Assembly: GCF_036865545.1 (NCBI RefSeq)
Contig: NZ_CP142208.1
Span: forward strand, 62,001-126,000
Length of the DNA stretch: 64,000 nucleotides
From: Erwinia sp. E_sp_B01_1
GTDB taxonomy: Bacteria; Pseudomonadota; Gammaproteobacteria; Enterobacterales; Enterobacteriaceae
Direction: 5' to 3'
Shown here: piece by piece, positions 647 through 16,733 of the stretch
Numbering within the stretch: position 1 is the stretch's first letter
How the letters are laid out: every line of letters begins with the position of its first letter
Made by a program: the position numbers and the translations under genes
The notes under the pieces: generated by a model
The model's database searches: none
What the model saw: the letters and a program-made list of their open reading frames with translations, nothing else
Told to the model about the DNA's origin: nothing

Positions 647-2716
647 TTACTGCAGCAGTGAAATATCCGCTACCTGCAGGAACAGCTCACGCAGTTTAGC
701 CAGCAGCGTCAGGCGGTTTATCCGCACTTCGCGCTCTTCGGCATTCACCATCACCTTCTCAAAGAAGTTGTCCACGGTGGTCCGCAGCTGTGCCAGCTCA
801 ATCAGTGCATCCTGATAACGGCCCTCAGCGAAGTAAGGCTGCAGCTTGCTGCTCAGCGCTGAGACATAGGTCGCTAACTGAATCTCTTCATTCTCTTTCA
901 GCAGAGAGGCCTGAACGCTGTCGTTCAGTGGCTCGGTAGCCTTCGCCAGAATGTTGGAGACGCGCTTGTTCGCCGCTGCCAGCGTGGTGGCTTCTTCCAG
1001 CGTACGGAAGTGGGACACCGCCTTCATACGGGCATTGAAGTCTGCCGGACGGGTAGGGCGACGAGCCAGCACGGCCTGGATGGTATCCACGCTGTGGCCT
1101 TCTTCCTGATACCAGGTGCGGAAACGCCCCAGCATAAAGTCGATAACTTCGTCGACCACTTTGGCGTTGCTCAGCTTGCTGCCGTAAAGGCGCACGGCTT
1201 CTTCGGTAAGGGTTTGCAGATCAAGCGGCAGGTTCTTCTCGACGATAATACGCAGCACGCCCAGCGCAGCACGGCGCAGTGCGAACGGGTCTTTATCGCC
1301 TTTCGGATGCTGACCAATGCCGAAAATACCGGCCAGGGTATCCATCTTGTCGGCAATAGCCAGCGCACAGGCTACCGGGCTGGAAGGCAGATCGTCACCG
1401 GCAAAACGCGGCTGATACTGCTCGTTCAGCGCTACGGCCACATCTTCTGCTTCGCCATCATGACGCGCATAGTGCATGCCCATCACGCCCTGGGTGTCGG
1501 TGAACTCAAACACCATGTTGGTCATCAGGTCGCATTTGGAGAGCAGACCAGCACGGGTAGCGTGATTAACATCGGCACCCGTCTGACCGGCAATCCAGCC
1601 CGCCAGCGCCTGAATACGGTCTGTTTTATCACGCAGCGTGCCCAGCTCTTTCTGGAACAGAACGGTTTCAAGACGTGGCAGGTTATCTTCCAGACGCTTT
1701 TTGCGGTCTGCATTAAAGAAGAACTCTGCATCAGCCAGACGCGGACGAACCACTTTCTCGTTACCGGAGATAATCTGCTGCGGATCTTTCGACTCGATAT
1801 TGGTGACGAAAATAAAGTTTGGCAGCAGTTTGCCTGCCTGGTCGTAGACCGGGAAGTATTTCTGGTCGCCTTTCATGGTGTAAACCAGCGCTTCGGCTGG
1901 CACGGCCAGGAACTTCTCTTCAAACTTCGCCGTCAGCACTACCGGCCACTCCACCAGAGACGTCACCTCTTCCAGCAGACTTTCGCTGAGATCGGCAATC
2001 CCGCCGATTTCACGGGCAGCCGCTTCGGCACCGGCTTTGATGAGTGCTTTACGCGCTTCATAGTCAGCCTGAACTTTGCCACGCTCCAGCAGTATTTCAG
2101 GATACTGGTCGGCATTGTCGAGGGTGAACTCCGCTTCGCCCATAAAGCGGTGACCACGGACAGTACGGCCAGAAGCCACGCCCAGAATGGTGGCTGGCAG
2201 GCTCTCTTCACCCAGCAGCAGCGTTACGGTGTGGACCGGACGCACAAACTGCACGTCAGAATCGGCCCAGCGCATCAGTTTCGGAACAGGCAGTTTAGAC
2301 AGCGAGGTGCTGACCATGGCAGGAAGCAGCGACTGTGCGCTTTCGCCTTTCACATGGGCGCGGTACAGCAGCCATTCACCCTTATCGGTGCTCAGGCGCT
2401 CGGCCTGATCGACGGTGATACCACAGCCGCGCGCCCAGCCTTCGGCAGCTTTGGTGGCCACGCCATTCGCATCAAACGCAGCGGCAATCGCCGGGCCACG
2501 TTTTTCTACTTCGCGATCGGGCTGTGCAGCGCTGAGGTTAGCTACTTTCAGCGCCAGACGGCGTGGTGCGGCATACCAGGTCACACCACCGTGCGTCAGG
2601 CCCGCGGTGTCCAGCTCGGCAGTAAAGTTAGCGGCAAAGGATTCGGCAAGACTACGCAGTGCCTTTGGTGGCAGCTCTTCGGTGCCGATCTCCACCAGAA
2701 ATGTTTTCTCAGTCAT
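647..2716 (-). CDS. glyS: Glycine--tRNA ligase beta subunit
   Basis: Beta subunit of the tetrameric (alpha2beta2) bacterial glycyl-tRNA synthetase, which binds tRNA while GlyQ carries the aminoacylation site; cytoplasmic. The protein starts [20 protein letters not shown] and has 689 residues, the same length as E. coli GlyS. An in-frame upstream ATG at 2791 would add 25 unrelated residues inside the end of glyQ, so 2716 is chosen. That start follows the glyQ stop by 10 bp, with GGAACC-type spacing upstream. The pair forms the usual glyQS operon. Long open frames on the opposite strand are shadows of this GC-rich gene. Confidence 0.98.
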
Positions 2717-2726
2717 GGTGGGTTCC

Positions 2727-3653
2727 TTAATCATTTTCCAGTTGTGCTGGCTTTTTGCACATCGGGAAGCCCAGCGCTTCACGCGACGCATAGTAAGCTT
2801 CAGCCACGGCTTTAGTCAGGGTACGGATGCGCAGGATATAGCGCTGACGTTCGGTCACAGAGATCGCTTTACGCGCATCCAGCAGGTTAAAACAGTGACC
2901 CGCCTTCAGGATGCGTTCGTAAGCCGGCAATGGCAGTGGATTTTCCAACGCCAGCAGGCTTTGGGCTTCTTTCTCATACTGCTCGAAGCAGGAGAACAGG
3001 AAGTCGACATCCGCGTGTTCGAAGTTATAGGTAGACTGCTCAACTTCGTTCTGGTGGAACACGTCGCCGTAGGTGGTTTTGCCCAGCGGGCCATCGCTCC
3101 ACACCAGATCATAAACGCTGTCCACGCCCTGGATATACATCGCCAGACGCTCCAGACCATAAGTGATCTCACCGGTCACCGGTTTGCACTCCAGGCCGCC
3201 CACCTGCTGGAAGTAGGTGAACTGCGTCACTTCCATGCCGTTCAGCCACACTTCCCAGCCCAGACCCCAGGCACCCAGCGTGGGGTTTTCCCAGTTATCT
3301 TCTACGAAGCGGATATCGTGGATAGTCGGGTCCAGACCCAGCGCTTTCAGGGAACCAAGATAGAGCTCCTGGATGTTGTCCGGGGAAGGCTTAATGGCCA
3401 CCTGAAACTGATAATAGTGCTGAAGACGGTTAGGGTTTTCACCGTAGCGTCCATCAGTCGGACGGCGTGACGGCTGTACGTAAGCCACGGCCATCGGTTC
3501 TGGCCCGATTGCACGCAGGCAGGTCATCGGGTGAGAAGTTCCTGCACCCACTTCCATGTCCAGTGGCTGCACGATGGTGCAGCCCAGGCTGCCCCAGTAA
3601 TCCTGTAAGGTCAGGATCAAACCCTGAAAGGTTTTGGTATCAAACTTTTGCAT
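2727..3653 (-). CDS. glyQ: Glycine--tRNA ligase alpha subunit
   Basis: Catalytic alpha subunit of glycyl-tRNA synthetase, a class II enzyme that makes glycyl-adenylate and charges tRNA-Gly. The 308-residue product begins [20 protein letters not shown] and carries the highly conserved segments [15 protein letters not shown] and [20 protein letters not shown]. coli GlyQ is 303 residues; the few extra residues are at the C-terminus. First gene of the glyQS operon. In E. coli wecH lies close upstream of glyQ, whereas here about 15 kb of other genes intervene. Confidence 0.98.
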
Positions 3654-3947
3654 GTTAGATCCGCACGCGATACGAGAGGTTATAAAAAGTGGGCGTCAGT
3701 ATACCCTTTGACCGTGAGTTAGTCAGCCCGCAGTTGAGTGCGTCAATAGCTGTAAGCATGATGTTTTAGCAAAAGAAGAGGGCCTATTGCATCTGCAGGG
3801 GTTACCCGGAATGTGAAGGCAAACATCTTGCGCATAAGCGCTACAGAATGTATATCAAGGGGAGTTGATTATAAATCAGCCAGTATGGGATTTTCATTAC
3901 AGGTAGTTGATGGCAGTTAATGCTCTGCCAACAGGAAGGTCGATAAA

Positions 3948-4826
3948 ATGGATTTGCATCAATTGAAGTCATTCGTCACTGTTGCTGAAACCTCCAGCCT
4001 TACACGGGCTGCCAGCATTCTTTTCCTCAGTCAGCCAGCAGTCAGTGCACATATCAAATCACTCGAAAATGAATACAACGTTAAACTGTTCAAACGCACG
4101 CCAAGAGGAATGGAACTCACTTCTGCCGGTATCATTATGCGAGAAGAGGCGCAGATTGCACTTGCTGCAGCAAAGAATTTTGTGAATAAAGCACGGACCA
4201 TAAATGATGTTATTACCTGTTCCCTTGGAACAATATCAGTCCCGGTTATCCTGAATTTACCAACAGTTCTTTCACGACTGCGTCAACGTCATCAGAATAT
4301 TAATTTGACCATCCGGCAAAACATTTCTGGCCACATTATTGATGGTGTTATAGGTGGTGAATTAGATGCAGGATTCGTCATTGGTAAAGTTGTGGATCCT
4401 GGTTTAGGGGTAATGGAAATTTCCCCGGTATCAATCTGCATTGTGGGGCCCTGGACCTGGAAGGAAAGGCTTAATAAGGCATCCCTGAAAGATATTCCTT
4501 CATTTCCCTGGATAGCTACGCCAGAAAAGTGTTCTTTCTCTACCATCAGTCGTGAGTTTTTTTCCCAAAATAATCTGAAGGTTAGACCTTGCATGGTTGC
4601 AGATCAGGAAAAAACGCTGACAGAAATGGTCAGTATGGAAATGGGGCTGACTCTGCTCAGAGAAGATCTGGCACTATCCGCCCAGGATAATCAGCAGGTT
4701 TATATCTGGCCGGGAGAAAAAACCATCAGTCAGCTATGCTTCATCTGGTCACTAGAAAGAGAAACCTCACCGGTTATTTCAGCATTAATCGACGCGGTGA
4801 GGGAACTTTGGGATATTAATGACTAA
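3948..4826 (+). CDS. LysR-family transcriptional regulator
   Basis: A 292-residue LysR-type regulator. The N-terminal winged helix-turn-helix is clear (MDLHQLKSFVTVAETSSLTR, then AASILFLSQPAVSAHIKSLE), followed by a periplasmic-binding-protein-like effector domain. The start has a good ribosome site (AGGAAGG, about 8 bases upstream). Its stop overlaps the convergent EamA exporter gene by 4 bp. A palindrome of LysR-operator type lies just upstream of that exporter (5794-5817), so exporter control is the likely job; this is inference. Base composition is more AT-rich than the flanking core genes, suggesting transfer. The inducer is unknown. Confidence 0.9.
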   Translation: MDLHQLKSFVTVAETSSLTRAASILFLSQPAVSAHIKSLENEYNVKLFKRTPRGMELTSAGIIMREEAQIALAAAKNFVNKARTINDVITCSLGTISVPVILNLPTVLSRLRQRHQNINLTIRQNISGHIIDGVIGGELDAGFVIGKVVDPGLGVMEISPVSICIVGPWTWKERLNKASLKDIPSFPWIATPEKCSFSTISREFFSQNNLKVRPCMVADQEKTLTEMVSMEMGLTLLREDLALSAQDNQQVYIWPGEKTISQLCFIWSLERETSPVISALIDAVRELWDIND

Positions 4827-5763
4827 TTTTCTATCATTAAAATTTTTGCCTGTTTGCGTTGGTTCAGATTATTTAAAATCAATGCTGTTGCAGTAATACA
4901 GGCACCGACAATCTGCAGTTGAGATGGAACAATACCATTCATTGCCGAGATGAAGAAAGCAGTAACCGGTACAATATCCATGAACAAAACACCATTCGTG
5001 GGGGTAATGATCATATTCCCAACATTCCAGCACAGCACTGCCATCATACCAGCAACCAATGCCATATAAAGCAGATGCGGTATAACGGCAGTCACTGAAG
5101 CGCTATGAGGTACGCTGATCATTCCAGTTAGCATAAGGACAATATCGATGGCTAAGACGCTAATCATGCCCAAAAGGGTTGTCAGCGTGGTATACCGTAT
5201 CGGACTCCAGCCAGGAAAATAAGATCCGCCTATGGTATACAAAACCCAACACAATGCACCTGCAATCAGTAAAAGGTTAGCGATTATATTTACTGGCTTA
5301 TTCAGGATGTCCGCCGTACTGCCGTGGGTTATTACAAGTAACACGCCAAAAAAAGATAGCAGAATAAAACCGAAGGTACTGGCAGCAGGCCGTTTTTTTT
5401 CAATGCCCAGATACTCAAAAGACCCAGCATTGGCATGGTTGCCATCATAATTGAAGCGGTTAGCGCTCCGGATGGTCCGGCGAGATGTTGCCCCAAAAAA
5501 ACCAGAAATCCAAAACCAGCAAAACCAAATGTTCCAAATAGCCAGGCAAGTCCCCAGCGTTCACCCTTAAGGTGAAAACCTTTACTTCCTTCCATGCAGA
5601 AAAGTAAAAGCGCAAAAGCTAATCCGGCAATACCGTAGCGGAGCGTTGTGAAATTGAATGGGTCAAGATGTGCCAGCGCATCTGTCATAATTGGGAACAT
5701 CGCACCCCATGATACAGTGGCCAGTAAGCAGCAAATAATGCCTTTTGTGTGTGAGGGGATCAT
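4823..5763 (-). pseudogene. EamA/DMT-family exporter split by a frameshift at an A8 run
   Basis: Inner-membrane carrier of the drug/metabolite transporter (EamA, ten-helix) type. The first frame (5763 to 5332) gives MIPSHTKGIICCLLATVSWG up to IWALKKN and then runs into an unrelated tail and a stop. The second frame (from about 5392 to 4823) continues the family sequence with KRPAASTFGFILLSFFGV, THGSTADIL and so on to the end. The junction is a run of eight A on the minus strand (5393-5400). One more A, or a -1 slip there, joins them into about 313 residues, a normal family length. The run reads A AAA AAC in frame, a classical -1 slippery heptamer. So this may be a pseudogene, a sequence error or a slippage-decoded gene. 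Ribosome site AAGGAA precedes the start. Likely exports a product of the neighbouring enzymes, which is inference. Confidence 0.85.
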
Positions 5764-5793
5764 ACTGTTTCCTTAACGTGAAATTTAAGTCCG

Positions 5794-5817
5794 TTATACT
5801 TGATTGCATAAGTGTAA
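5794..5817. promoter_or_regulatory. Palindrome, candidate LysR operator of the exporter gene
   Basis: The imperfect palindrome TTAtACTT-(8)-AAGTgTAA lies about 30 bp upstream of the exporter start, in a 122-bp gap. Arms match at 7 of 8 positions and the spacing fits a T-N11-A type LysR box. The neighbouring LysR gene (3948-4826) is the obvious candidate ligand. Function is inferred. Confidence 0.5.
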
Positions 5818-5885
5818 CTATTATCTAAACGGAAAATAATGAATGATTATTTTCAAATTGGTCTAATATCTTACATCTGCTTTCA

Positions 5886-7382
5886 TCATGCAGCGTCAGG
5901 CCGATGGATAACCTCATAAAACCTAACCTTTCCACTGGGGCTATAAGGTATGCTTTCTACATTTTTTATTTTGAATTTTGAAACTTTATGTTCGTGAAAT
6001 ATATTTTCTATTTTATTAATAAGCGACCCTGTTTTTAACAAGGCCGTATTTTTTGTAGTATATAAACATTCAAGCGAGCATGAGGTGTTATCTATAACAG
6101 GAATTATGACAATATCATTAATGCATGGCAAGGATCTTAATTTCTCTTCAATGCTATAGACATGAAATGTGTTTTTATTATCTGCGTTTCTGTTCATCAA
6201 AAAAAGTCGATTTTGAGAATCTATGTAGCCATAATCGGCCATAAGGAAGTATGAAGAACCTTCAATTTCTACAAATGGTTTTCTTCCATCTCCGTATTCA
6301 TCCATTAACATATAGCTAGCGATAGCTACACGACCTTGAATACCTTTTTCTACCGGGTTATTTTTAGGGTCAAGAATAATAACTTTATTTCCATCAAATG
6401 CTCGTCCTACACTTTCTGGATTGCTGATTAAATCATCAGGCTCAGCCAGTATATTAATTCCCGACTCTGTACAACCGTAGTATTCATGAATAATAGCGCC
6501 CAGGGCATCAACCGCTTCAATTTTTCTTTGAGCGGAGAAGTTACAACCACCGACAAGTAACCATCTCAGGTGGGTTTTGATACCAAAAACATTCATCATT
6601 TCCACTAGATGTGAAACTAAATTGGGTGTCATAACCGATGTGGAAACATGACTTGAGGACAACGTTTTTATAATTTCTTGATCATTATTTTGATCAACCA
6701 GATACAGTATTGAACCCAGGCCCATAAACATCCTGGCCCACCCATTGCCCGCAGCATGATAAAGGGGAAGTATGAGCATGAAGCCATCAAGATGATTAAA
6801 TCCATATCGTGCCGTAAACCATGCAAATCTACGCGCATCGAAAGACTTATAACGCACTGCTATTTTAGGTTCCGAAGAGGTTCCAGATGTTAATGAAAGA
6901 GAGCGAAAAGCAACTGGTTTATGAATTTTAAGGATCTCATTAATTTTGTCTTGATGGATGATACCTAAACTTTTTACAACTGGGTCAATAGGCGCATCAA
7001 TAGCCATCAATGTAACACCCGTGGATTGTAGTTTGCTGATTTCATCAGCATTATAAAGTTTAAAGGAGATAAGTAGTAATCCTGGTTTTATTTTTTTTAA
7101 TAAATTTACCAAGGTGTTGAGTGGAAGAGAGTAGTCAAGTCCATTTATGGGTATGGACAACGTGGAAAATGCCGAAAGCCAACAAATTAATTCGAAACTA
7201 TTTTTAGATATAAAACTGGCAGATTGAAGTTGCCATGGCTGAAAGTTATTTTTTAAAAAACAAATTTTTGATTCAGTAAGCGATAGAGTTTCCTGCCATG
7301 TATAAACCTTTTCGCCACTAATCATGCAGGGAAGATTACCCTGGGCTGAAGTAATTTCTCTTAATCTTTCTAGTTTAATCAT
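5886..7382 (-). CDS. ANL-superfamily adenylate-forming enzyme
   Basis: A 498-residue AMP-binding enzyme of the acyl-CoA synthetase / NRPS adenylation / luciferase superfamily, expected to activate a carboxylate with ATP. Visible motifs: phosphate-binding loop LTSGTSSEPK (164-173), YYGCTESG (301-308), MADYGYID (381-388) with the ribose-binding Asp, and PYSPSGKVR (479-487) with the C-terminal catalytic Lys (485). The hinge motif, usually GRxxD, is degenerate (MNRNAD). The N-terminal half is weakly conserved. No carrier-protein, thioesterase or condensation domain is attached and none lies nearby, so the acceptor of the activated acid is unknown. It follows the PLP enzyme gene by 29 bp on the same strand. 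Markedly AT-rich, with many AT-ending codons, suggesting horizontal transfer. Confidence 0.85.
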   Translation of the reverse strand: MIKLERLREITSAQGNLPCMISGEKVYTWQETLSLTESKICFLKNNFQPWQLQSASFISKNSFELICWLSAFSTLSIPINGLDYSLPLNTLVNLLKKIKPGLLLISFKLYNADEISKLQSTGVTLMAIDAPIDPVVKSLGIIHQDKINEILKIHKPVAFRSLSLTSGTSSEPKIAVRYKSFDARRFAWFTARYGFNHLDGFMLILPLYHAAGNGWARMFMGLGSILYLVDQNNDQEIIKTLSSSHVSTSVMTPNLVSHLVEMMNVFGIKTHLRWLLVGGCNFSAQRKIEAVDALGAIIHEYYGCTESGINILAEPDDLISNPESVGRAFDGNKVIILDPKNNPVEKGIQGRVAIASYMLMDEYGDGRKPFVEIEGSSYFLMADYGYIDSQNRLFLMNRNADNKNTFHVYSIEEKLRSLPCINDIVIIPVIDNTSCSLECLYTTKNTALLKTGSLINKIENIFHEHKVSKFKIKNVESIPYSPSGKVRFYEVIHRPDAA

Positions 7383-7411
7383 TATGTATTTCCCGATAAT
7401 TAAATTAATTA

Positions 7412-8809
7412 CTATGCTGCAATGATCAGCATGCCTTTTTCTCGGTATTGATTAATTTTCATTCTGACTTTTTTGTCAATTACCTCTCCGGGGAAAACCA
7501 ATGGTATTCCAGGTGGGTAGGAAACAATGAATTTATCTGAGGAATTATATTCTTTCAAATCTGAACCATTACACTTAATATTTTCATTGTACAAGTCGGA
7601 TAAAGCATCGCTCAATTTTTTTGTGGCCGCTTTATTTACTCCAATATGAAAGTTAAGCAGAAGACAGTTTCCAATCGTTCTGTTTACGTAAATATTTTTA
7701 AGGAGTAATTTTGATTTTATTTCTGCTGCAGTCCCAAGAATCGAAACATCAAGCATAAACTTAGTTGGGTCAATGTGAATATGCCATTGCTTTTTATGAA
7801 ATAGTTGTCGGATGTTTTTAATTTTGAGTTCCGGTAAGTTTTCAATTGATAGAGCGAAATCATTTAACAATTTTCGACTGTAATTAGAAAGCTCTTTGCC
7901 ATATTGATCCATCTCATACCGGGACATCTCAAGTGAAGCCAATACAGGATAACTGGGTGAAGTTGTATGGATTCTATATTTCGCAATCTCAATCTTTTCA
8001 GCAAGATGTTGATCTCCTTTGCAATGTATAAGAGAAGCCTGACGCAAACAATATAATGATTTATGAGCTGATTGGGTGCAAATTATTTGAATATCAGGAA
8101 ATAAGGATACTACTTTGTCCGCATGCATGACAGTTAACTTACGGGTGTCATCACTAAAGTAATTCAAACTACCCCACGCTTCGTCAATAAAGAATTTCCG
8201 GGTTTTAACCCCATCTGAAAGAAGTCTGTATAAAATTTCTGGTATATCATAGATCATTCCATCATAAGACTGTGCTGTAAGGATTATTAAATCATATCCA
8301 TTGGTTGTTTTTTGTTTTTCCAGTATTTCATTTTTTAAATTATCATAAGACCAGGCACTGACTTCCCCGTCATCACTGCTTAAATCAGGGTGAAGGTAAC
8401 GTATATCCGCACCCAGAGATTGAGTATGAAAATGCACAGATTGATGGCAGTTTTTATCAACAAGAACAGTATCATTTTTTTCGCATATTGCTGAGATAGC
8501 TATCTGGTTTGCTACACTAGTGCCGCTAGTGATATAAAATGAAGCGTCGGAATTATAAGTTTTTGCAGTCAGGTTTTGCGACTTAAAAATTACATTCCTT
8601 GGAAAGAAAAAGTTATCAAATCTTTCACCTGTTACTGTTGATTCAAGATTTAGCCCCATAATTGAAGAGCCACCAGGCAAGATATCACTTCCTCCTAAGC
8701 TGGAAATGGGTAGTGCATGGAAGGAATAAATTCCTTTTTGACATAGTGTCTTAAGCGTAGTAAATAAAGGTAGCTCTTCTTTTTTTAAGTTTATCATCTC
8801 TTCAGTCAT
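7412..8809 (-). CDS. PLP-dependent enzyme of the Orn/Lys/Arg decarboxylase family (short form)
   Basis: A 465-residue fold-type I PLP protein related to ornithine/lysine/arginine decarboxylases. Visible motifs: ITSGTSVANQIAISA (93-107), VDKNCHQSVHF (117-127), FFIDEAWGSLNYF (206-218) with the PLP-binding Asp 209, CTQSAHKSLYCLRQASLIH (244-262) with the Schiff-base Lys 250, TTSPSYPVLASLEMSRYEM (282-300), and near the end SYPPGIPLVFPGE, typical of the family's C-terminal domain. It lacks the N-terminal wing domain of the large inducible E. coli enzymes (over 700 residues). The substrate cannot be told; a diamine or an agmatine-like product is possible. First gene of the minus-strand set and AT-rich like its partner. 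Confidence 0.85.
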   Translation of the reverse strand: MTEEMINLKKEELPLFTTLKTLCQKGIYSFHALPISSLGGSDILPGGSSIMGLNLESTVTGERFDNFFFPRNVIFKSQNLTAKTYNSDASFYITSGTSVANQIAISAICEKNDTVLVDKNCHQSVHFHTQSLGADIRYLHPDLSSDDGEVSAWSYDNLKNEILEKQKTTNGYDLIILTAQSYDGMIYDIPEILYRLLSDGVKTRKFFIDEAWGSLNYFSDDTRKLTVMHADKVVSLFPDIQIICTQSAHKSLYCLRQASLIHCKGDQHLAEKIEIAKYRIHTTSPSYPVLASLEMSRYEMDQYGKELSNYSRKLLNDFALSIENLPELKIKNIRQLFHKKQWHIHIDPTKFMLDVSILGTAAEIKSKLLLKNIYVNRTIGNCLLLNFHIGVNKAATKKLSDALSDLYNENIKCNGSDLKEYNSSDKFIVSYPPGIPLVFPGEVIDKKVRMKINQYREKGMLIIAA

Positions 8810-8997
8810 TTTATTTCCCAGGTTTATATTCCGTGGGAATTAATATGCATTAGCAGAGAATAGATTAAAATTTGTAATTTCTGATGTAGTTATCACTCTG
8901 GTTGATAGCAGCAGCACCTTTTATGAAGTTCAGGTCGGTTCATGGTGAAATCCTGCGTGCTGGCATACAAAAACAGGCCTTTAAACCCCACCATCAC

Positions 8998-9012
8998 AAA
9001 ATCGTATACTTT
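8998..9012. promoter_or_regulatory. GTATAC-centred operator candidate 1
   Basis: The sequence aaaatcgtatacttt is a partial palindrome around GTATAC. It shares the 9-mer ATCGTATAC with the site at 9179-9193, and the two lie on either side of the CRP site. Such cores are typical of operators of GntR regulators of the FadR subfamily, one of which is encoded in this operon (16754-17524). Inference. Confidence 0.4.
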
Positions 9013-9040
9013 GCCATCGCCTGAAAATCGCACGGAAAAA

Positions 9041-9060
9041 AATGTGATTTATATCACATT
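9041..9060. promoter_or_regulatory. CRP-cAMP binding site
   Basis: AATGTGAT-TTAT-ATCACATT is a perfect match to both CRP half sites (TGTGA-N6-TCACA) with symmetric flanks. It lies 167 bp upstream of the first gene (9227) of the catabolic operon, so activation when preferred carbon sources are absent is likely. The rest of the 8810-9226 gap holds the two GTATAC sites and no gene that could be supported. Confidence 0.8.
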
Positions 9061-9178
9061 TATATTACTGATTTTTCTAACTTTCCTCCCGGTTATCCGC
9101 ACGAAATTTTTCAGCTAACCCGCTGTGTCAAAGCATAAAACCTTCCATCTGGTCAAAATGCGCGCGTTGACTTTCGTC

Positions 9179-9193
9179 TGATCGTATACGAAT
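9179..9193. promoter_or_regulatory. GTATAC-centred operator candidate 2
   Basis: The sequence tgatcgtatacgaat contains the near-perfect palindrome ATCGTATACGAA, 34 bp upstream of the ridA-like start. It shares ATCGTATAC with the site at 8998-9012. The position suits repression by the operon's own GntR regulator; this is inference. Confidence 0.45.
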
Positions 9194-9226
9194 TATGAGT
9201 CATCAAACGTTCGCTGAGACACCTTA

Positions 9227-9619
9227 ATGAAAAAGGCCATTGCCTATCCTGGTATGAACGCAGAAGACCGCCCAATGGGGCCAGCGCCCCTGTCGGCAGC
9301 CGTGCTGCATGAACCCATGCTGTTTATCTCTGGTCAGGTGGCGATTGACCCTTACACCGCCACCATCGTGGGGAAAACCATTCAGGAACAAACCCACCAG
9401 GTACTGAAAAACGTCGGTGATTTGTTGAGCCAGGCAGACATGACTTTCGACAACGTGGTTCGCGTGACCATTTTCCTGACCGACCTGTCGCTTTTTTCCC
9501 AGTTGAACGAGGTGTACGCAGAGTACTTCTCCTTCCCGTTCCCGGCCCGGGCCACCGTAGGCATTCAGCTTAACCATCCTGATTTACTGGTTGAGCTGGA
9601 AGTCACGGCGATGCGCTGA
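9227..9619 (+). CDS. RidA/YjgF-family imine/enamine deaminase
   Basis: A 130-residue protein of the RidA (YjgF/YER057c/UK114) family, trimeric cytosolic proteins that hydrolyse reactive enamine/imine intermediates to ketoacids and ammonia. Family landmarks are FISGQVAIDP, QTHQVLKNVGDLL, VVRVTIFLTDL and FPFPARATVGI, which holds the conserved ligand-binding Arg. First gene of the operon running to 18676. The CRP site and GTATAC palindromes lie upstream. A RidA in a catabolic operon suggests that the pathway makes an unstable nitrogen-containing intermediate, which is inference. It is not the housekeeping ridA by context. Confidence 0.88.
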   Translation: MKKAIAYPGMNAEDRPMGPAPLSAAVLHEPMLFISGQVAIDPYTATIVGKTIQEQTHQVLKNVGDLLSQADMTFDNVVRVTIFLTDLSLFSQLNEVYAEYFSFPFPARATVGIQLNHPDLLVELEVTAMR

Positions 9620-9634
9620 AGCGCGGAGAAAAAC

Positions 9635-10612
9635 ATGCATATTCATATTGAAAACGATCCGGCTGGCCCGCAGGCGCTGCGCCTTCCCAAAGCGCTGCTC
9701 TGGCAACGTCTTGAGGCGAATCCGCTGCTGACGGGCAAATTCACCCTGTCGGAAAACAACGACCCTCAGCGACTGGCAGATTTCCTGCCGGTAGCGGATA
9801 TCGTCTGGGCCGGACGTAAATTTCCCCTGTATCAGCATATGGCTGAAGCCACAAAACTGGGTTGGGTTCAGGTGATGTCGGCAGGCGTGGAAAGCTGGCT
9901 GGAGAGATGGCCGGGCGCCGTTCAGCTCACCAACGCTTCCGGCGTCCACGGTGACAAAGGCGCTGAATTTATCCTGATGTCAGCACTGATGTTCAACTAC
10001 GGCATTCCGGGCTTTTTACAGGATCAGGCCAGTCAGCAGTGGCGTCCAGCGTTTGGCGGCTGCGCTCGCGGCAAAAAAGTCACGCTGCTGGGGCTGGGTG
10101 GCATTGGATCGGCGGCCGCAGCCCTGCTGACCCGTCAGGGTTATGAAGTCGTCGGCGTAACCCGCAGCGGAGAAACGCAGGCCGATGTGGCTCGCTGCAT
10201 CAGCCTGGCAGACATTGAGCAGGAGCTGGCGGATACCGATGTGCTGGTCTCAACCCTGCCGCTGACCCCGGAAACCAACGGATTTTTCAGCCGCGAACGT
10301 CTGGCAAAACTGCCGCCTCGTGCAGGTGTGATTATTGTTGGCCGCGCGCGGGTCTTCGATTACGACGCCCTTAGCGAGATGCTGAATCAGGAGAAGCTGG
10401 CGGGTGCGGTACTGGATGTGTTTTACGAAGAGCCGCTGCCTGAAGGTGATGCGCTCTGGCAGTGCCCGCGGTTGATTATGACCCCGCACTGTAGCCTCGA
10501 CGATCACGGCGCCTACCTTGACGGCTGCCTGACGCTATTTTTGCAGAACCTCGAACGGTATCTGGCCGGAGAGCCGCTGATAAACCGTGTAAGTAGTCAG
10601 AAAGGGTATTGA
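9635..10612 (+). CDS. D-2-hydroxyacid dehydrogenase (GhrA-like)
   Basis: A 325-residue NAD(P)-dependent D-isomer-specific 2-hydroxyacid dehydrogenase, which interconverts a 2-ketoacid and a D-2-hydroxyacid. The Rossmann motif is LLGLGGIGSAAA. The catalytic set is visible: Arg in VGRARVFDYDAL, Glu in VLDVFYEEPLP, His in TPHCSL. It resembles the hydroxypyruvate/glyoxylate reductase group. It lies 15 bp after the RidA gene with a GGAG ribosome site. Together with RidA it could reduce the ketoacid released downstream of deamination; the substrate is not determined. Confidence 0.85.
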   Translation: MHIHIENDPAGPQALRLPKALLWQRLEANPLLTGKFTLSENNDPQRLADFLPVADIVWAGRKFPLYQHMAEATKLGWVQVMSAGVESWLERWPGAVQLTNASGVHGDKGAEFILMSALMFNYGIPGFLQDQASQQWRPAFGGCARGKKVTLLGLGGIGSAAAALLTRQGYEVVGVTRSGETQADVARCISLADIEQELADTDVLVSTLPLTPETNGFFSRERLAKLPPRAGVIIVGRARVFDYDALSEMLNQEKLAGAVLDVFYEEPLPEGDALWQCPRLIMTPHCSLDDHGAYLDGCLTLFLQNLERYLAGEPLINRVSSQKGY

Positions 10613-11717: not shown

Positions 11718-13241
11718 GTGGATGATTTTCTGAAGTATTTAACTCTGCCTTATCTGTGGCAGGGTGCTGTTATCGCTGTCCAGCTTCTGGTCGGTGCGCT
11801 GGCAGGTGGCGTGATTATTGGGTTCTTTCTGGCGCTGGCCAGCACCTCCCGCCACTGGATTATTCGTTTTCCCGTGCAGGTCTATATCTATATTCTGCGC
11901 GGCACGCCGGTGCTGTTGCAGCTGATCCTGCTCTATAACGTGCTGCCGCAGTTTGGCCTGCGCTTCAGCCCTTTTCTCAGCGCCCTGCTGGCGTTGATGA
12001 TCAACGAAACGGCTTTCTGTGCGGAAATTATCCGTGGCGGCATTCTCGCCACCGATCGCAACCAGCGCACGGCGGCCCAGGCTTTTGGTTATTCCCGTAC
12101 CAAAGAGATGATCCATGTGGTTATCCCTCAGGCACTGCGCGCTATTCTGCCCACTATGGGCAACGAAGCCGTGGGGCTGCTGAAGTCCACCTCGCTGGCC
12201 TCGGTAGTCGGCGTGAACGAACTGACCATGCGTGGGCAGACCATCGTTTCGCAAAACTTCCTGTTTATTCCGGTGCTGGTGGCTTCAGGTGGGATTTATA
12301 TGATCCTCTCTTCGCTGCTGGCTGCCGGTCAATGGTGGCTTGAGCGTCATTACAATCTTGAAGATCGCGCCCGTCGTGCCCGTCTCCGGCTGGAGAAGCT
12401 GCCGATGCCAGCCGAAGCGGAAGTGGTGCCACTGCCAAAACAGCGCTGGGAAACCAGTAAAGCCGCGCCGGTACTCGAAATTGATAATCTCTGCGTGGAG
12501 TATGGCAACAAGCCGGTGCTGAAAGATCTGTCGCTGCATATCCGTCGGGGCGAAGTGGTGGTGCTGCTGGGCCGCTCCGGTTCCGGTAAAAGTACGCTGC
12601 TGAAATCGATTCTGGCACTGACTCCGCGTTCCAGCGGCACCATTTCGACGGAAGGCCACCTTATGGGCTACGACGAAAATGGTCGCGTGCTGCCCGATCG
12701 TCTGCTGCCGCAAAACCGTGCCCGTTCCGGCATCGGCATTGTTTTCCAGCATTTCGCACTGTTCGATCATCTGACCGCGCTGGATAACGCGATGAGCATT
12801 CCTTTGCGGGTGCAGGGCATGCAGGAAGATGTAGCCCGCGCCAAAGGGCTGCGGGCATTACGTGCCGTGGGTCTGGGGGATTTTGTCGCTAACCTGCCGC
12901 ACGAACTTTCCGGCGGGCAGCAGCAGCGGGTGGGGATTGCCAGAGCGCTGGCCGCTGAGCCCCGTATCCTGCTGTTTGATGAGCCCACCTCGGCGCTGGA
13001 TCCGGAACTGGTGCGCGAAGTGAACCAGACCATCCGTAACCTCGCGCAGACCGGCATCACTCTGGTTATCAGTACCCACGATATCGCTTTCGCGGCGAGC
13101 GTGGCGGATCGGGTGGTGTTCCTGCAGGGCGGACAACTGATTGAGCAGGGGCCGCCGGCCATCCTTAAACAGCCCCAGACAGAAGCGTTCACCACCTTCC
13201 TTAAACACGAGCAGGAACATCAGGAGAGTCAGCATGGCTGA
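11718..13241 (+). CDS. ABC transporter permease-ATPase fusion, polar amino acid type
   Basis: A 507-residue fusion. Residues 1 to about 215 are a His/Glu/Gln-type permease with several membrane helices and the coupling segment EIIRGGILATDRNQRTAAQA followed by FGYS. Residues about 250-500 are an ATPase with Walker A GRSGSGKST, signature LSGGQQQRVGIARAL, Walker B ILLFDEPTSALDPE and H-loop STHD. These are separate proteins in most amino-acid transporters. Start is GTG with GGAGAG five bases upstream. It overlaps the next gene by 8 bp. With the 10703 binding protein it should form a complete importer as a dimer. Confidence 0.9.
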   Translation: MDDFLKYLTLPYLWQGAVIAVQLLVGALAGGVIIGFFLALASTSRHWIIRFPVQVYIYILRGTPVLLQLILLYNVLPQFGLRFSPFLSALLALMINETAFCAEIIRGGILATDRNQRTAAQAFGYSRTKEMIHVVIPQALRAILPTMGNEAVGLLKSTSLASVVGVNELTMRGQTIVSQNFLFIPVLVASGGIYMILSSLLAAGQWWLERHYNLEDRARRARLRLEKLPMPAEAEVVPLPKQRWETSKAAPVLEIDNLCVEYGNKPVLKDLSLHIRRGEVVVLLGRSGSGKSTLLKSILALTPRSSGTISTEGHLMGYDENGRVLPDRLLPQNRARSGIGIVFQHFALFDHLTALDNAMSIPLRVQGMQEDVARAKGLRALRAVGLGDFVANLPHELSGGQQQRVGIARALAAEPRILLFDEPTSALDPELVREVNQTIRNLAQTGITLVISTHDIAFAASVADRVVFLQGGQLIEQGPPAILKQPQTEAFTTFLKHEQEHQESQHG

Positions 13242-14301
13242 GTGCAAAAAGGCGCTGCCTTTTCAACAGGAAACGCGCGAGCGCCTGGGCGATCCGCTTT
13301 ACCGCTATATGCTGGGCCAGCCTGCTGATGCTCTGCTGGACGCGCAGGACAGCAACGGCCTGGATTTGCAGCGTTACCGTCTGCTGCCCCGCGTGATGCG
13401 GGCAAACCAGGGGATTGATACCAGCGTGACTTTCGCCGGGTCACGCTGGGCCGCCCCGCTGGGAGTGGGCGCTTTTGCAGGAGATAAGATTTTCCATCCT
13501 GAGGGGCTGTTGCCGATCGCCCGTGCCTGCAGGCGCCTGAATCTGCCGCTGGCGATTTCGGAAGAGACGGTGACGCCGCTAAATGAAATTTGCGCGGAGT
13601 ATGAAGGCTGCTGGCTGCAACTGCGGGCGGCGGGAGAGCTGACCCGTATTGAAGCGCTGATTGCCCATGCCGCCGAATGTGGCGCAAAAGGGATCATCCT
13701 GACGGTGCTGGCCCCGGTGCATCCGGTGCCTGGCCTGCAACCCGGCGGCTTTTCGATAGGTGATGCCCTGTTACAACGTGGACTGAAAACTATCGGTTCC
13801 ACCGGGCCAGGCGTTCAGGCGCTGCCTGCCTTCCCGTGCTGGGGCTGGGATCAGCTGCGTCAGGCCTGCGAGTTGGCCGCTGCCCATAAATTGCCGCTGC
13901 TGGTAAAAGGTATTCTGCATCCTGAGGATGCGACTGCCGCCCAAAACGCGGGTTGCCAGGGCATCATTGCCTCGAATATTGGTCTGCGCCAGAGCGCACG
14001 CTGGGCATCACCGGCGCAGCAACTGCCTGCGCTTCGTCAGCATTATCAGGGCAATCTGGTCCTCGATGGTGGCGTGCGCAGTGGAACAGATGCCGTGGTG
14101 GCCGCCTGTCTGGGAGCGTCCTTATCGCTGGTTGTCCGGCCGGTAATCAGTGCGCTGGTGGCGGGCGGAGAGGATGCGGTCTTCGGGCTGCTGTCGGGTT
14201 GGGTGAATGAAATCACCGCCCTGAGCCACTGGTGCGGCGTCAGCAACATGGGCGAGCTGAATACCGCGTTTCTTACCACGGAAGGAGCTGGCTGCTTATG
14301 A
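13234..14301 (+). CDS. FMN-dependent alpha-hydroxyacid oxidase-like protein lacking the active-site His
   Basis: A 355-residue TIM-barrel protein of the lactate/glycolate oxidase family. Landmarks: RVMRANQGIDTSVTF, WAAPLGVGAFAG, LPLLVKGILHPEDA with the flavin-binding Lys, and LVLDGGVRSGTDAVVAA with the phosphate-binding Arg. The active-site motif, normally SNHGGRQ, reads SNIGLRQ here, so the catalytic base His is Ile. The flavin site looks kept but ordinary hydroxyacid oxidation is doubtful. The start at ATG 13234 is chosen over an upstream in-frame start at 13141, which would lie deep within the ATPase gene. Its stop overlaps the next small frame as ATGA. Confidence 0.85.
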   Translation: MAECKKALPFQQETRERLGDPLYRYMLGQPADALLDAQDSNGLDLQRYRLLPRVMRANQGIDTSVTFAGSRWAAPLGVGAFAGDKIFHPEGLLPIARACRRLNLPLAISEETVTPLNEICAEYEGCWLQLRAAGELTRIEALIAHAAECGAKGIILTVLAPVHPVPGLQPGGFSIGDALLQRGLKTIGSTGPGVQALPAFPCWGWDQLRQACELAAAHKLPLLVKGILHPEDATAAQNAGCQGIIASNIGLRQSARWASPAQQLPALRQHYQGNLVLDGGVRSGTDAVVAACLGASLSLVVRPVISALVAGGEDAVFGLLSGWVNEITALSHWCGVSNMGELNTAFLTTEGAGCL

Positions 14302-14408
14302 AACTCTCTGCTGGTTTAGCAGGTTTAAAAAAACCTGACCTGGCTGTGGTCGTAGCTTTCCTCTTCATTCCATCAGCCTCTGTATCTGCGGGAGCAAACC
14401 TGTCATGA
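14298..14408 (+). CDS. 36-residue signal-peptide-like small ORF
   Basis: A short frame between two operon genes. It starts in an ATGA overlap with the preceding stop, 10 bases after AAGGAG, and ends in an ATGA overlap with the start of the next binding protein. The product reads as a basic N-terminus, a hydrophobic stretch (LAVVVAFLFIPSASVS) and a plausible signal-peptidase site (SVSAGA). It is in a different frame from the following binding protein, which has no signal of its own. So it may be that protein's detached signal peptide after an indel, or a genuine membrane micropeptide. Confidence 0.45.
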   Translation: MKLSAGLAGLKKPDLAVVVAFLFIPSASVSAGANLS

Positions 14409-15352
14409 CGATGTCCTTAATCCTGAATCAGGGCGATCGCAGCGAATCACGCATTTATTACTGTGCGCAGTATCTGGCTGAAAGCCTGGGGCTGTTTGCT
14501 AAGCACGGCCTCAGCGTGCAGTTCACCACCGCAGAGTCGGGCGGGAAAACGGTGCAGGGCGGTCAGGTTCCGGCAGTGATGGCTGGCGAAGCCGATCTGA
14601 CCATTGGTGGCCCGATGGTGATGATGAAAAATTATCAGGAGCAGGGCCCGGAGCTGCTCTGTTTTGCGGCGGCAGTTTCTGCTAACCCGTGGTTCCTGGC
14701 CGCAGGCAAAACTGACGACGACTTCTCGCTGACCAGTTTGCGCGGCAAACGCGTGATTGATGTCGGCAACGTCGGCACTGCCACCCTGAGTTTCAACTGG
14801 TTGCTGCGTCAACATCGCTTAGAAAGTGAAGTTGAGTTAATTGCAGGCTGCGGTGATGAAGCTGCCGATTTCGCCGCTGTCAGCCGGGGAGATGCCGACT
14901 ATGCCCTGCACTCAATGCACGCGCTGGCACCTTTCATCGTCCGTGGCGATATTTCTGCTGTTACCAGTCTGGCTCCCCTTTGCGGCGACATTCCCTGGAG
15001 TGCTTATATCGCCCGCCGTGATGTGATGGCGGCAAAACAGGCTGCCTTCAGCGCCTTTACCGCCGCGATGGCAGAAGCCCAGCAGTGGCTGCAAACGCAC
15101 AGCGCGCAGGCACTGGCAGATCGGGTGCAGCCCTGGTATCAGGATTACCCCAAAGCGGCGCTGGTTACCGGTCTTGATGCCTACCTGAAGGCGAACGTTT
15201 TTGCCGCTTCGCCGTTAATCGCCCGCGAAGATTTTGATCGCTTTGCCCGGTTGCTTACCGAAGCAGGCTGGCTCAGCCCGGCAATTCCGGTTCCTTTCGC
15301 CGCGCTGGTGGAGACTTCCCTCGCAGCCCGCGCAAACCCTTCACAGGAGTAA
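14405..15352 (+). CDS. NMT1/THI5-like substrate-binding protein without in-frame signal peptide
   Basis: A 315-residue SsuA/THI5-like (NMT1) bilobed protein, the type that serves taurine, aliphatic sulfonate and pyrimidine ABC importers. The N-lobe pattern is visible (YYCAQYLAESLGLFAKHGLS, ADLTIGGPMVMMKNY, LRGKRVIDVGNVGTATLSFN). The frame begins MTMSLILNQGDRSES, with no signal peptide, while a signal-like 36-residue frame lies immediately upstream in another frame. No cognate SsuBC-type ABC pair is nearby. It could be a cytoplasmic relative, an inactive binding protein, or an exported protein spoiled by a one-base indel. Confidence 0.75.
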   Translation: MTMSLILNQGDRSESRIYYCAQYLAESLGLFAKHGLSVQFTTAESGGKTVQGGQVPAVMAGEADLTIGGPMVMMKNYQEQGPELLCFAAAVSANPWFLAAGKTDDDFSLTSLRGKRVIDVGNVGTATLSFNWLLRQHRLESEVELIAGCGDEAADFAAVSRGDADYALHSMHALAPFIVRGDISAVTSLAPLCGDIPWSAYIARRDVMAAKQAAFSAFTAAMAEAQQWLQTHSAQALADRVQPWYQDYPKAALVTGLDAYLKANVFAASPLIAREDFDRFARLLTEAGWLSPAIPVPFAALVETSLAARANPSQE

Positions 15353-15356
15353 CGGC

Positions 15357-16733
15357 ATGAAGACGTTGATTATTAATGGCCTGGTGGTACTCGAGAGCGG
15401 AGAAGTGCAGGCGAATCTGCTGATCGAACAGGGGAAAATTGCCGGTATCCTGGCGCAGGATGCAACCCTGCCACAGGTTGATGAAATCATTGATGCCGCC
15501 GGGCTGGTGATTGTGCCAGGCGCGATTGATGTTCATACCCACTTCACCGGATCGCACGATTACCCGGAGAAGGAGCTGCTGGAAGGCACGCGGGGCGCGG
15601 CAGCCCACGGCGTTACCACTATTGTCGAAATGCCTCATTCGCTGCCTCCGGCGACCAGCCCCAAAAACTTTATCGCCAAGCGCGAGATGCTGGCCCGCAG
15701 TTGTTCAGTGGATTTTGCAATGTGGGCAGGGCTGGATGGCAACAACGTCAGCCAGCTTGCTGAGATGGATGCGCTGGGGGCTGTCGCCTTTAAAGCTTTC
15801 CTGTGCAGCGGCGCAATAAATGGCGAAGCCACCGATGAGAAAGGCCTGCCGCGTCTGAACGACGATGGGTTGCTGCGTGCGATGCGCGAGCTGAAAACCT
15901 TTGATGGCCTGATTGGCGTCCATGCGGAAAACCACGACATTCTGATTGGCGCAGGCACGGAACTGCGTCAGGCAGGCCGGAAAGATACCCGCGCCCACGC
16001 GCTGGCCGGGCCGGAAATTGCCGAAATTGAGGCGGTTGGCCGCGTATTGCAGATTGCCAAAGCCACCGGAGCCAGGGCGCATATCGTTCACGTCAGCTCG
16101 GCGAAAGCCGCCCTGCAGATTGCTGCTGCCCGCCCGGAAGTGCGTGCGACCTTTGAAACCTGTCCGCACTACTTAATCCTGGATGAAGATGATCTGGTGC
16201 GCATTGGTCCGAATGCCCGCTGCGGCCCGCCAATCCGCCCCCGTCCGGTGGTGGATGCGTTGTGGCAGGTGTTGCACAGCGGTGAGATTGACGTGCTGGC
16301 GTCCGATCACTGCCCCTATACGCCGGAGCAAAAGCTGGCCGGGTTAGAAACCATCTGGGATGCCGGAATGGGCCTGACCGGCGTGGAAACGCTGGGGCCG
16401 ATGTTCTTCAGCGAAGGCCACGTTAAGCGCGGCGTGTCGCTGCGGGATTTCGCCCGCATGACCGCTACCGGCCCGGCTAAAGCTTTCCATCTTTATCCAA
16501 AGAAAGGGGCGATCGCGCTGGGCTTTGATGCCGACCTGGCATTTTACGATCCGGCGGGTAACTGGACGGTGGAAGGGGCTAAATTCCAGGGGTTGGGCAA
16601 ATGGAGCGCCTTTGAAGGCATGGCCTGTCAGGGCAAGGTCGTCCGCACCCTGATCCGTGGGGTGACGGTGTTCTGTAACGGTGAAATGCAGATTGAGCCA
16701 GGTTTTGGTGAGTTCCAGACCCGCACCCATTAA
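15357..16733 (+). CDS. Allantoinase/dihydroorotase-type cyclic amidohydrolase
   Basis: A 458-residue metal-dependent hydrolase of the cyclic amidohydrolase family, which opens ring amides such as allantoin, hydantoins or dihydropyrimidines. Visible metal ligands: DVHTHFTGSHD near 60, the carboxylated Lys in VAFKAFLCSG near 147, VHAENHD near 187, HIVHVSS near 242 and LASDHCPYT near 316. It is close to AllB in length (453 in E. coli) and motif order. The start at ATG 15357 has AGGAG upstream; an earlier in-frame start at 15234 would lie within the preceding gene. No other allantoin genes (allA, allC, allD) are near, so the true substrate may differ. Confidence 0.88.
   Translation: MKTLIINGLVVLESGEVQANLLIEQGKIAGILAQDATLPQVDEIIDAAGLVIVPGAIDVHTHFTGSHDYPEKELLEGTRGAAAHGVTTIVEMPHSLPPATSPKNFIAKREMLARSCSVDFAMWAGLDGNNVSQLAEMDALGAVAFKAFLCSGAINGEATDEKGLPRLNDDGLLRAMRELKTFDGLIGVHAENHDILIGAGTELRQAGRKDTRAHALAGPEIAEIEAVGRVLQIAKATGARAHIVHVSSAKAALQIAAARPEVRATFETCPHYLILDEDDLVRIGPNARCGPPIRPRPVVDALWQVLHSGEIDVLASDHCPYTPEQKLAGLETIWDAGMGLTGVETLGPMFFSEGHVKRGVSLRDFARMTATGPAKAFHLYPKKGAIALGFDADLAFYDPAGNWTVEGAKFQGLGKWSAFEGMACQGKVVRTLIRGVTVFCNGEMQIEPGFGEFQTRTH

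Follow-up and report, generated by a model that had tools for sequence, protein, structure and literature searches.

The cassette and its surroundings

The window analyzed here, a 64,000-nt stretch of Erwinia sp. E_sp_B01_1 (NZ_CP142208.1, positions 62,001 to 126,000, forward strand; coordinates below are window positions), contains an AT-rich insert with glyQ on one side and ridA on the other. The four cassette genes within it were confirmed and encode a LysR-type regulator with HTH_1 and LysR_substrate domains, an EamA exporter, an ANL adenylate-forming ligase (AMP-binding, E value of 6.5e-25), and a short pyridoxal phosphate (PLP) enzyme matching OKR_DC_1 (9.7e-43), which is a putative amino acid decarboxylase (Table 1). 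In 1-kb windows, G+C is 0.34 to 0.37 over positions 5501 to 9000 (both enzymes) and 0.43 to 0.46 over 3501 to 6000 (LysR and exporter), against 0.52 to 0.62 in the flanks to 20 kb. A preliminary description of this four-gene set was right as to the regulator, the ligase, the decarboxylase, the 29-bp spacing between the two enzyme genes, and the AT-rich DNA, but it treated the exporter as one intact gene, whereas the exporter lies in two frames.

Table 1. Features of the glyQ-ridA insert, in window coordinates
Feature	Positions	Strand	Basis
AT-rich insert with cassette, glyQ-ridA gap	3731..9149	.	Homology breaks versus cassette-free G022 and G029; G+C shift
LysR-type regulator, convergent to operon	3948..4826	+	Pfam; homologs in other cassettes
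EamA exporter C-terminal half, second frame	4823..5344	-	PF00892, E 2.3e-9; 71-75% to six other enterobacterial cassettes
EamA exporter N-terminal half, first frame	5332..5763	-	PF00892, E 7.1e-14; 78-85% to six other enterobacterial cassettes
8-base homopolymer by exporter frame change	5393..5400	-	Sequence
Exporter upstream region, operator absent	5764..5885	-	Best match within 200 nt has 3 mismatches
ANL adenylate-forming ligase, 498 aa	5886..7382	-	PF00501; invariant motifs; fold
Short OKR_DC_1 PLP enzyme, 465 aa, putative amino acid decarboxylase	7412..8809	-	PF01276; aligned CadA residues; fold
Putative LysR-type operator TATCA-N7-TGATA (ATC-N9-GAT)	8891..8907	-	Centered 90 bp before decarboxylase start

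Recurrence of the gene set in other genomes

The decarboxylase, ligase, and exporter genes form a conserved unit, not a chance neighborhood. In each of 14 cassette-type records (matches at E values of ≤1e-45 or stricter, or 1e-40 in one search, minus five long decarboxylases and plus the Cedecea colo and Azospirillum records; a class partly defined by outcome, in that the PLP enzyme of G387, at 30% identity, is no closer to that of the window than are some homologs set aside), the ligase gene adjoins the decarboxylase gene, its frame being broken in G019. The preliminary description had named recurrence of this adjacency, together with the exporter, as support for a pathway, and the survey bore it out; the contrary outcome that it had named, that the two enzymes rarely co-occur, does not hold for close homologs. 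The PLP profile and the ligase profile (1e-60) pick out the same 5 of 37 genus genomes, and in the phylum sample the ligase profile matches 2 of 398 genomes, identical to the two PLP cassette carriers. This reciprocal test shows linkage, since genes transferred together do not count as independent; evidence of a common function comes from the natural fusions and conserved operator-like sites described below rather than from co-occurrence.

Among 98 genomes of relatives, including the window's own, four others, all of the same genus, have a full PLP ortholog, and all four show the PLP gene, the adjoining ligase gene, then EamA, and then a convergent LysR gene. A scan of named genomes returned four loci, in Winslowiella iniecta, Erwinia phyllosphaerae, Erwinia typographi, and Cedecea colo, of which only the last, with a full gene set, was a new carrier, the other three having been counted already. 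For the family and class samples, in which the PLP profile was the only query, matches occurred in 4 of 392 genomes (G000, G002, G121, and G387) and 2 of 369 genomes (G000 and G577), respectively; in the phylum sample this profile matched 7 of 398, two of them cassettes (G000 and G1086) and five longer decarboxylases lacking a cassette. The full gene order is present in both G121 and G1086, and the order PLP, ligase, EamA, and convergent LysR is common to eight cassettes.

Other carriers depart from this arrangement. The PLP and ligase genes stand side by side on four Azospirillum plasmids, and the two that were viewed have a divergent LysR gene and a ligase-EamA fusion, of 845 aa in one of them. 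In G387, of the same family as the window, ligase and EamA are likewise fused (832 aa), the PLP gene is split over two frames, and the LysR gene is unrelated; the ligase and exporter thus form a single protein in two lineages. Both fusions contain two EamA stretches, and in the standalone relatives tblastn places the two halves in a single frame. G577 combines PLP, ligase, and EamA genes, with no LysR gene of the cassette type detected at 1e-30, and an isochorismatase-fold hydrolase gene lies beside the cassette there and in both Azospirillum records viewed.

More distant homologs were set aside. No ligase match at 1e-30 was obtained in 32 of the 36 plasmid records with a PLP match, and short plasmid PLP homologs of about 28% identity exist without a ligase; plasmid homologs at 26 to 30% identity were excluded, those viewed being from Rhizobium (two records), Cupriavidus, and Sinorhizobium. 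On the two Rhizobium plasmids, the short homologs (27 to 28%; L045, positions 8977 to 10461, and L046, positions 9007 to 10488) lie between nonribosomal peptide synthetase (NRPS) genes, and the short PLP type thus appears to occur in NRPS operons too. The five longer decarboxylases (L056 to L060; families f7, f133, f209, and f218), with open frames of 667 to 711 aa and no cassette, were also excluded; by eye, their N-terminal part resembles a response-regulator receiver domain.

Insertion site and probable lateral transfer

Two cassette-free relatives delimit the insert. In G022 (L095), ridA adjoins glyQ, and similarity to the window breaks off near position 3731 and picks up again near 9150; in G029 (L072), the relative with the closest glyQ (98%), it ends at about 3730 and resumes at about 9145. 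The gap in G029 consists of some 1.2 kb with no homology to the window (L072, positions 2480 to 3698) and is filled by small open reading frames unrelated to the cassette, and for this reason the glyQ-ridA site may be a hotspot for accessory genes. A glyQ match occurs in 36 of the 37 genus genomes, and of 30 glyQ loci compared, 27 lack ridA within 1.5 kb, two have it within that distance, and the remaining one is that of the window.

Between the window and the four other carriers of the genus, glyQ is 94 to 95% identical whereas the PLP enzyme is only 55 to 57% identical, so the cassettes have hardly been inherited with the chromosome. FastTree phylogenies of the PLP enzyme and the ligase have identical branching among the seven enterobacterial cassettes (support for the node of the window, 0.91 and 0.64, respectively), and in both, the cassettes of Cedecea and G121, which belong to other genera, nest among those of the window's genus. 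This nesting is consistent with transfer of the cassette as a whole unit. The exporter tree differs, grouping the window with G024 and G002. Directly adjoining the G387 cassette are pieces that, by eye, resemble an IS630-type transposase (L040, positions 5 to 1078).

Regulator and operator-like sites

The LysR protein of the window is 64 to 72% identical to those of the six other enterobacterial cassettes, 43% identical to those of the two Azospirillum plasmids, and 38 to 39% identical to that of G1086. When five genomes were searched at an E value of ≤1e-30, the sole match, where there was any (G000, G121, and G1086), was the cassette gene.

Alignment of upstream regions revealed a common block, TATCA-N7-TGATA, which with at most one mismatch is centered at -90 to -99 relative to the PLP start in all seven enterobacterial cassettes and at -86 to -116 relative to the exporter start in six of them; the background frequency is 42 of 7,911 50-nt segments, true sites counted in. 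The exception is the exporter of the window itself (Table 1). ATC-N9-GAT is a classic arrangement of LysR sites, and the block before the decarboxylase gene of the window qualifies as a putative operator of this type at its promoter. Farther afield, the motif was not found before the G1086 genes (best, 3 to 4 mismatches), and the two Azospirillum records viewed have only ATC-N9-GAT, between the LysR and PLP genes and 160 bp before the latter. A match before the G577 exporter was not accepted as a cassette operator: that locus has five matches in 17.7 kb and lacks such a LysR gene, and the match may be due to chance or to another regulator. A perfect match on a Pantoea plasmid (L042) was rejected as well, as it falls inside an annotated EamA gene.

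Catalytic residues of the two enzymes

The PLP enzyme scores 146.9 bits against PF01276 (curated cutoff, 27), and its core aligns with lysine and arginine decarboxylases. Residues H122, D209, and K250 align with the PLP-site residues H245, D330, and K367 of Escherichia coli CadA, are also conserved against AdiA, and are invariant in the 11-row alignment of cassettes (the fold alignments omit the PLP sequence of G387 and the ligase sequences of G019 and G387). Their retention supports decarboxylase-type chemistry. The preliminary description went on to suggest a basic amino acid as the substrate, which finds no support here: alignment with CadA and AdiA (27% and 23% identity, respectively) does not fix the substrate, and the literature searched on how decarboxylases recognize their substrates offered nothing usable.

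The best Protein Data Bank match, by both sequence and structure, is Rv2531c of Mycobacterium tuberculosis (9n0n, 9n0o, and 9n0p), with ornithine and lysine decarboxylases being the other leading structural matches; unlike the 465-aa cassette enzyme, Rv2531c has 933 to 947 aa and an extra N-terminal part. SAR0482 (2x3l, 446 aa; about 20% identity) and Bacillus YaaO (27%) are short OKR_DC_1 proteins of similar length that align over their full length; a search of the YaaO record at 1e-30 gave no ligase match. Against CadA, alignable sequence starts only near CadA residue 130, past the wing domain of residues 1 to 129 (PMC4832331), and the greater part of the C-terminal domain is unmatched. Lacking both this wing and a full C-terminal domain, the enzyme was rejected as an inducible acid-stress decarboxylase of the CadA/AdiA type.

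In the ligase, the motifs TSGT..PK and EYYG.TE.G and the A10 lysine (K485) are present, and T165 to T168, P172, K173, E300 to G303, T305, E306, and K485 are invariant in the 11 cassette rows. The retained residues support adenylating chemistry; the motifs that the preliminary description had thought catalytic in appearance are thus conserved in both enzymes. The standalone amide bond synthetases McbA and ShABS (PMC6282839 and PMC10804368) are two-domain ANL enzymes of about 500 aa like the cassette ligase and are high structural matches, but identity in these matches is 16 to 18% and coenzyme A (CoA) ligases match equally well or better. McbA and the CoA ligases tie in the structural ranking, in which the Foldseek order is not decisive, and CoA ligases lead by sequence. 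The A8 glycine of 4-coumarate:CoA ligase is absent from the cassette ligase and from McbA too. At the position that, on the basis of a common P-[LMI]-YH motif, we take to be equivalent to McbA D201, the 11 cassette rows have an invariant histidine (H209), not the aspartate of McbA. A histidine is also found there in 4-chlorobenzoyl-CoA ligase (PMC6282839).

Exporter break and possible decay

The exporter of the window consists of two overlapping frames, each matching EamA separately, and could be made as a single protein only by reading across frames; in eight relatives (G024, G002, G013, G019, Cedecea colo, G121, G577, and G1086) it is a single frame of 317 to 327 aa. With both the reading frame and the operator site gone, export through this protein has probably been lost, and since the loss of the operator accompanies the broken frame, true decay appears likelier than sequencing error alone. 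The A-run by the frame change also resembles a slippery sequence, at which slippage could yield low levels of full-length exporter. Elsewhere, the ligase frame of G019 is broken near the C terminus and the PLP frame of G387 is broken, bringing the records with a broken frame to at least 3 of 14 (one exporter, one ligase, and one PLP gene, with two of the four Azospirillum records viewed). The mixture of broken and intact copies fits a conditionally useful trait that is gained and lost.

The cassette of the window may be a degenerating remnant that no longer functions, a serious possibility that we hold to be somewhat the less probable view. The damage to its exporter and the single broken genes in two further cassettes speak for it, but the LysR, ligase, and decarboxylase frames of the window are intact with their catalytic residues kept, the A-run could allow frameshifting or be an assembly error, and a different exporter could serve.

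Proposed function

We propose, with a probability of roughly 0.5, that this is a laterally transferred, self-contained, carrier-free cassette that converts an amino acid to an amine, makes an amide from this amine and an adenylated acid, and exports it. The sequences show one conserved unit of PLP enzyme, ligase, exporter, and in most cases a LysR regulator, with operator-like sites and retained catalytic residues; the chemistry that we infer takes the parsimonious path. Under LysR control, the PLP enzyme would decarboxylate an amino acid to an amine; the ligase would adenylate a carboxylic acid and pass the acyl group from the acyl-adenylate directly to the amine, with neither carrier protein nor condensation enzyme; and EamA would export the resulting N-acyl amine. 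Such an amide could be a substrate for the isochorismatase-fold hydrolases encoded next to two cassette types.

The closest known logic is that of the fungal E-64 clusters cp1 and cp2, in which a PLP decarboxylase supplies the amine beside an ANL enzyme with demonstrated amide bond synthetase activity, without NRPS association (PMC12568646). These clusters, which encode four proteins each, establish that the two enzyme types can partner in this way (PMC12568646), and the earlier statement that no characterized pathway has this pair was too strong. They also need two further enzymes, an oxygenase and the ATP-grasp enzyme of the first amide step, and no exporter is among the encoded proteins (PMC12568646). 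Of these components, our four-gene unit has only the decarboxylase and the ANL enzyme; neighbors farther out were read by eye and in part by profile. No publication joining the cassette's terms was found in the open-licence literature, where searching gave, besides the E-64 study, a biocatalysis review and a beta-lactone paper.

A bolder version of the amide proposal, which we offer tentatively and consider doubtful, is a mobile family of minimal make-and-export cassettes in which the ligase hands its product straight to its own exporter, as the natural fusions suggest. Among the six enterobacterial cassettes other than that of the window, pairwise identity is 55 to 76% for the PLP enzyme and 56 to 75% for the ligase, compared with 72 to 85% for the exporter and 64 to 82% for the regulator (in the exporter comparison, two Azospirillum rows, cut out of frame, were disregarded, and the G1086 row, which ran past its stop, was rechecked as an intact frame of 317 aa). 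Because the enzymes diverge faster than the exporter and regulator, the product would differ from lineage to lineage within a single exported class of N-acyl amine signals or antimetabolites.

Three other functions are each unlikely, to differing degrees. In a catabolic or detoxifying module, LysR would sense a compound, the enzymes would modify or degrade it, and EamA would expel the residue; modules of this kind often include LysR regulators and EamA carriers, and the hydrolase genes beside the G577 and Azospirillum cassettes would suit one. However, no oxidoreductase or ring-cleavage partner recurs across the cassettes, as judged from neighbors read by eye, and the ligase-exporter fusions suggest export of the ligase product itself.

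We give slightly less credence to a scheme in which the ligase acts as an acyl-CoA synthetase and its acyl-CoA product is condensed with an amino acid by the PLP enzyme in a decarboxylating step, yielding an exported amino ketone, in the manner of CqsA and other alpha-oxoamine synthases. The ligase itself is ambiguous on this point, since the ranking of CoA ligases beside or above McbA and the presence of H209 favor it while the missing A8 glycine does not; the PLP enzyme is less accommodating, being OKR_DC_1 by profile, with Rv2531c and ornithine/lysine decarboxylases as its best structural matches. Finally, a role in acid stress or amine export on the model of CadA-CadB, in which the ligase would be incidental, is highly improbable despite the alignable decarboxylase core, given a ligase gene in every cassette-type record and its fusion to the exporter in two lineages, the missing wing domain of the acid-stress decamers, and the fact that EamA is not known to be an amino acid:amine antiporter family.

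If the amide proposal is true, the cassette would be among the smallest complete natural-product systems, having an amine-making enzyme, a ligase, an exporter, and a regulator but no carrier protein; the ligase-exporter fusion would offer a direct handle on the coupling of synthesis to export, and the ligases would form a new pool of candidate amide-forming biocatalysts. Cluster finders based on NRPS or polyketide synthase genes could overlook such a cassette.

Related genes in other contexts

On the Pantoea alhagi plasmid mentioned above (L042, positions 5383 to 7643), where neither a ligase nor a PLP match was found, a related EamA gene (52 to 62%) is accompanied by genes for a divergent LysR, a 4-oxalocrotonate tautomerase, and an alpha/beta hydrolase. 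Beyond the cassette of G577, a genome of 1.8 Mb, lie genes for an autoinducer-binding domain protein (PF03472) and an Acetyltransf_5 protein (PF13444), together with, by eye, monooxygenase-like and alpha/beta-hydrolase-like genes (L041, positions 11878 to 15794).

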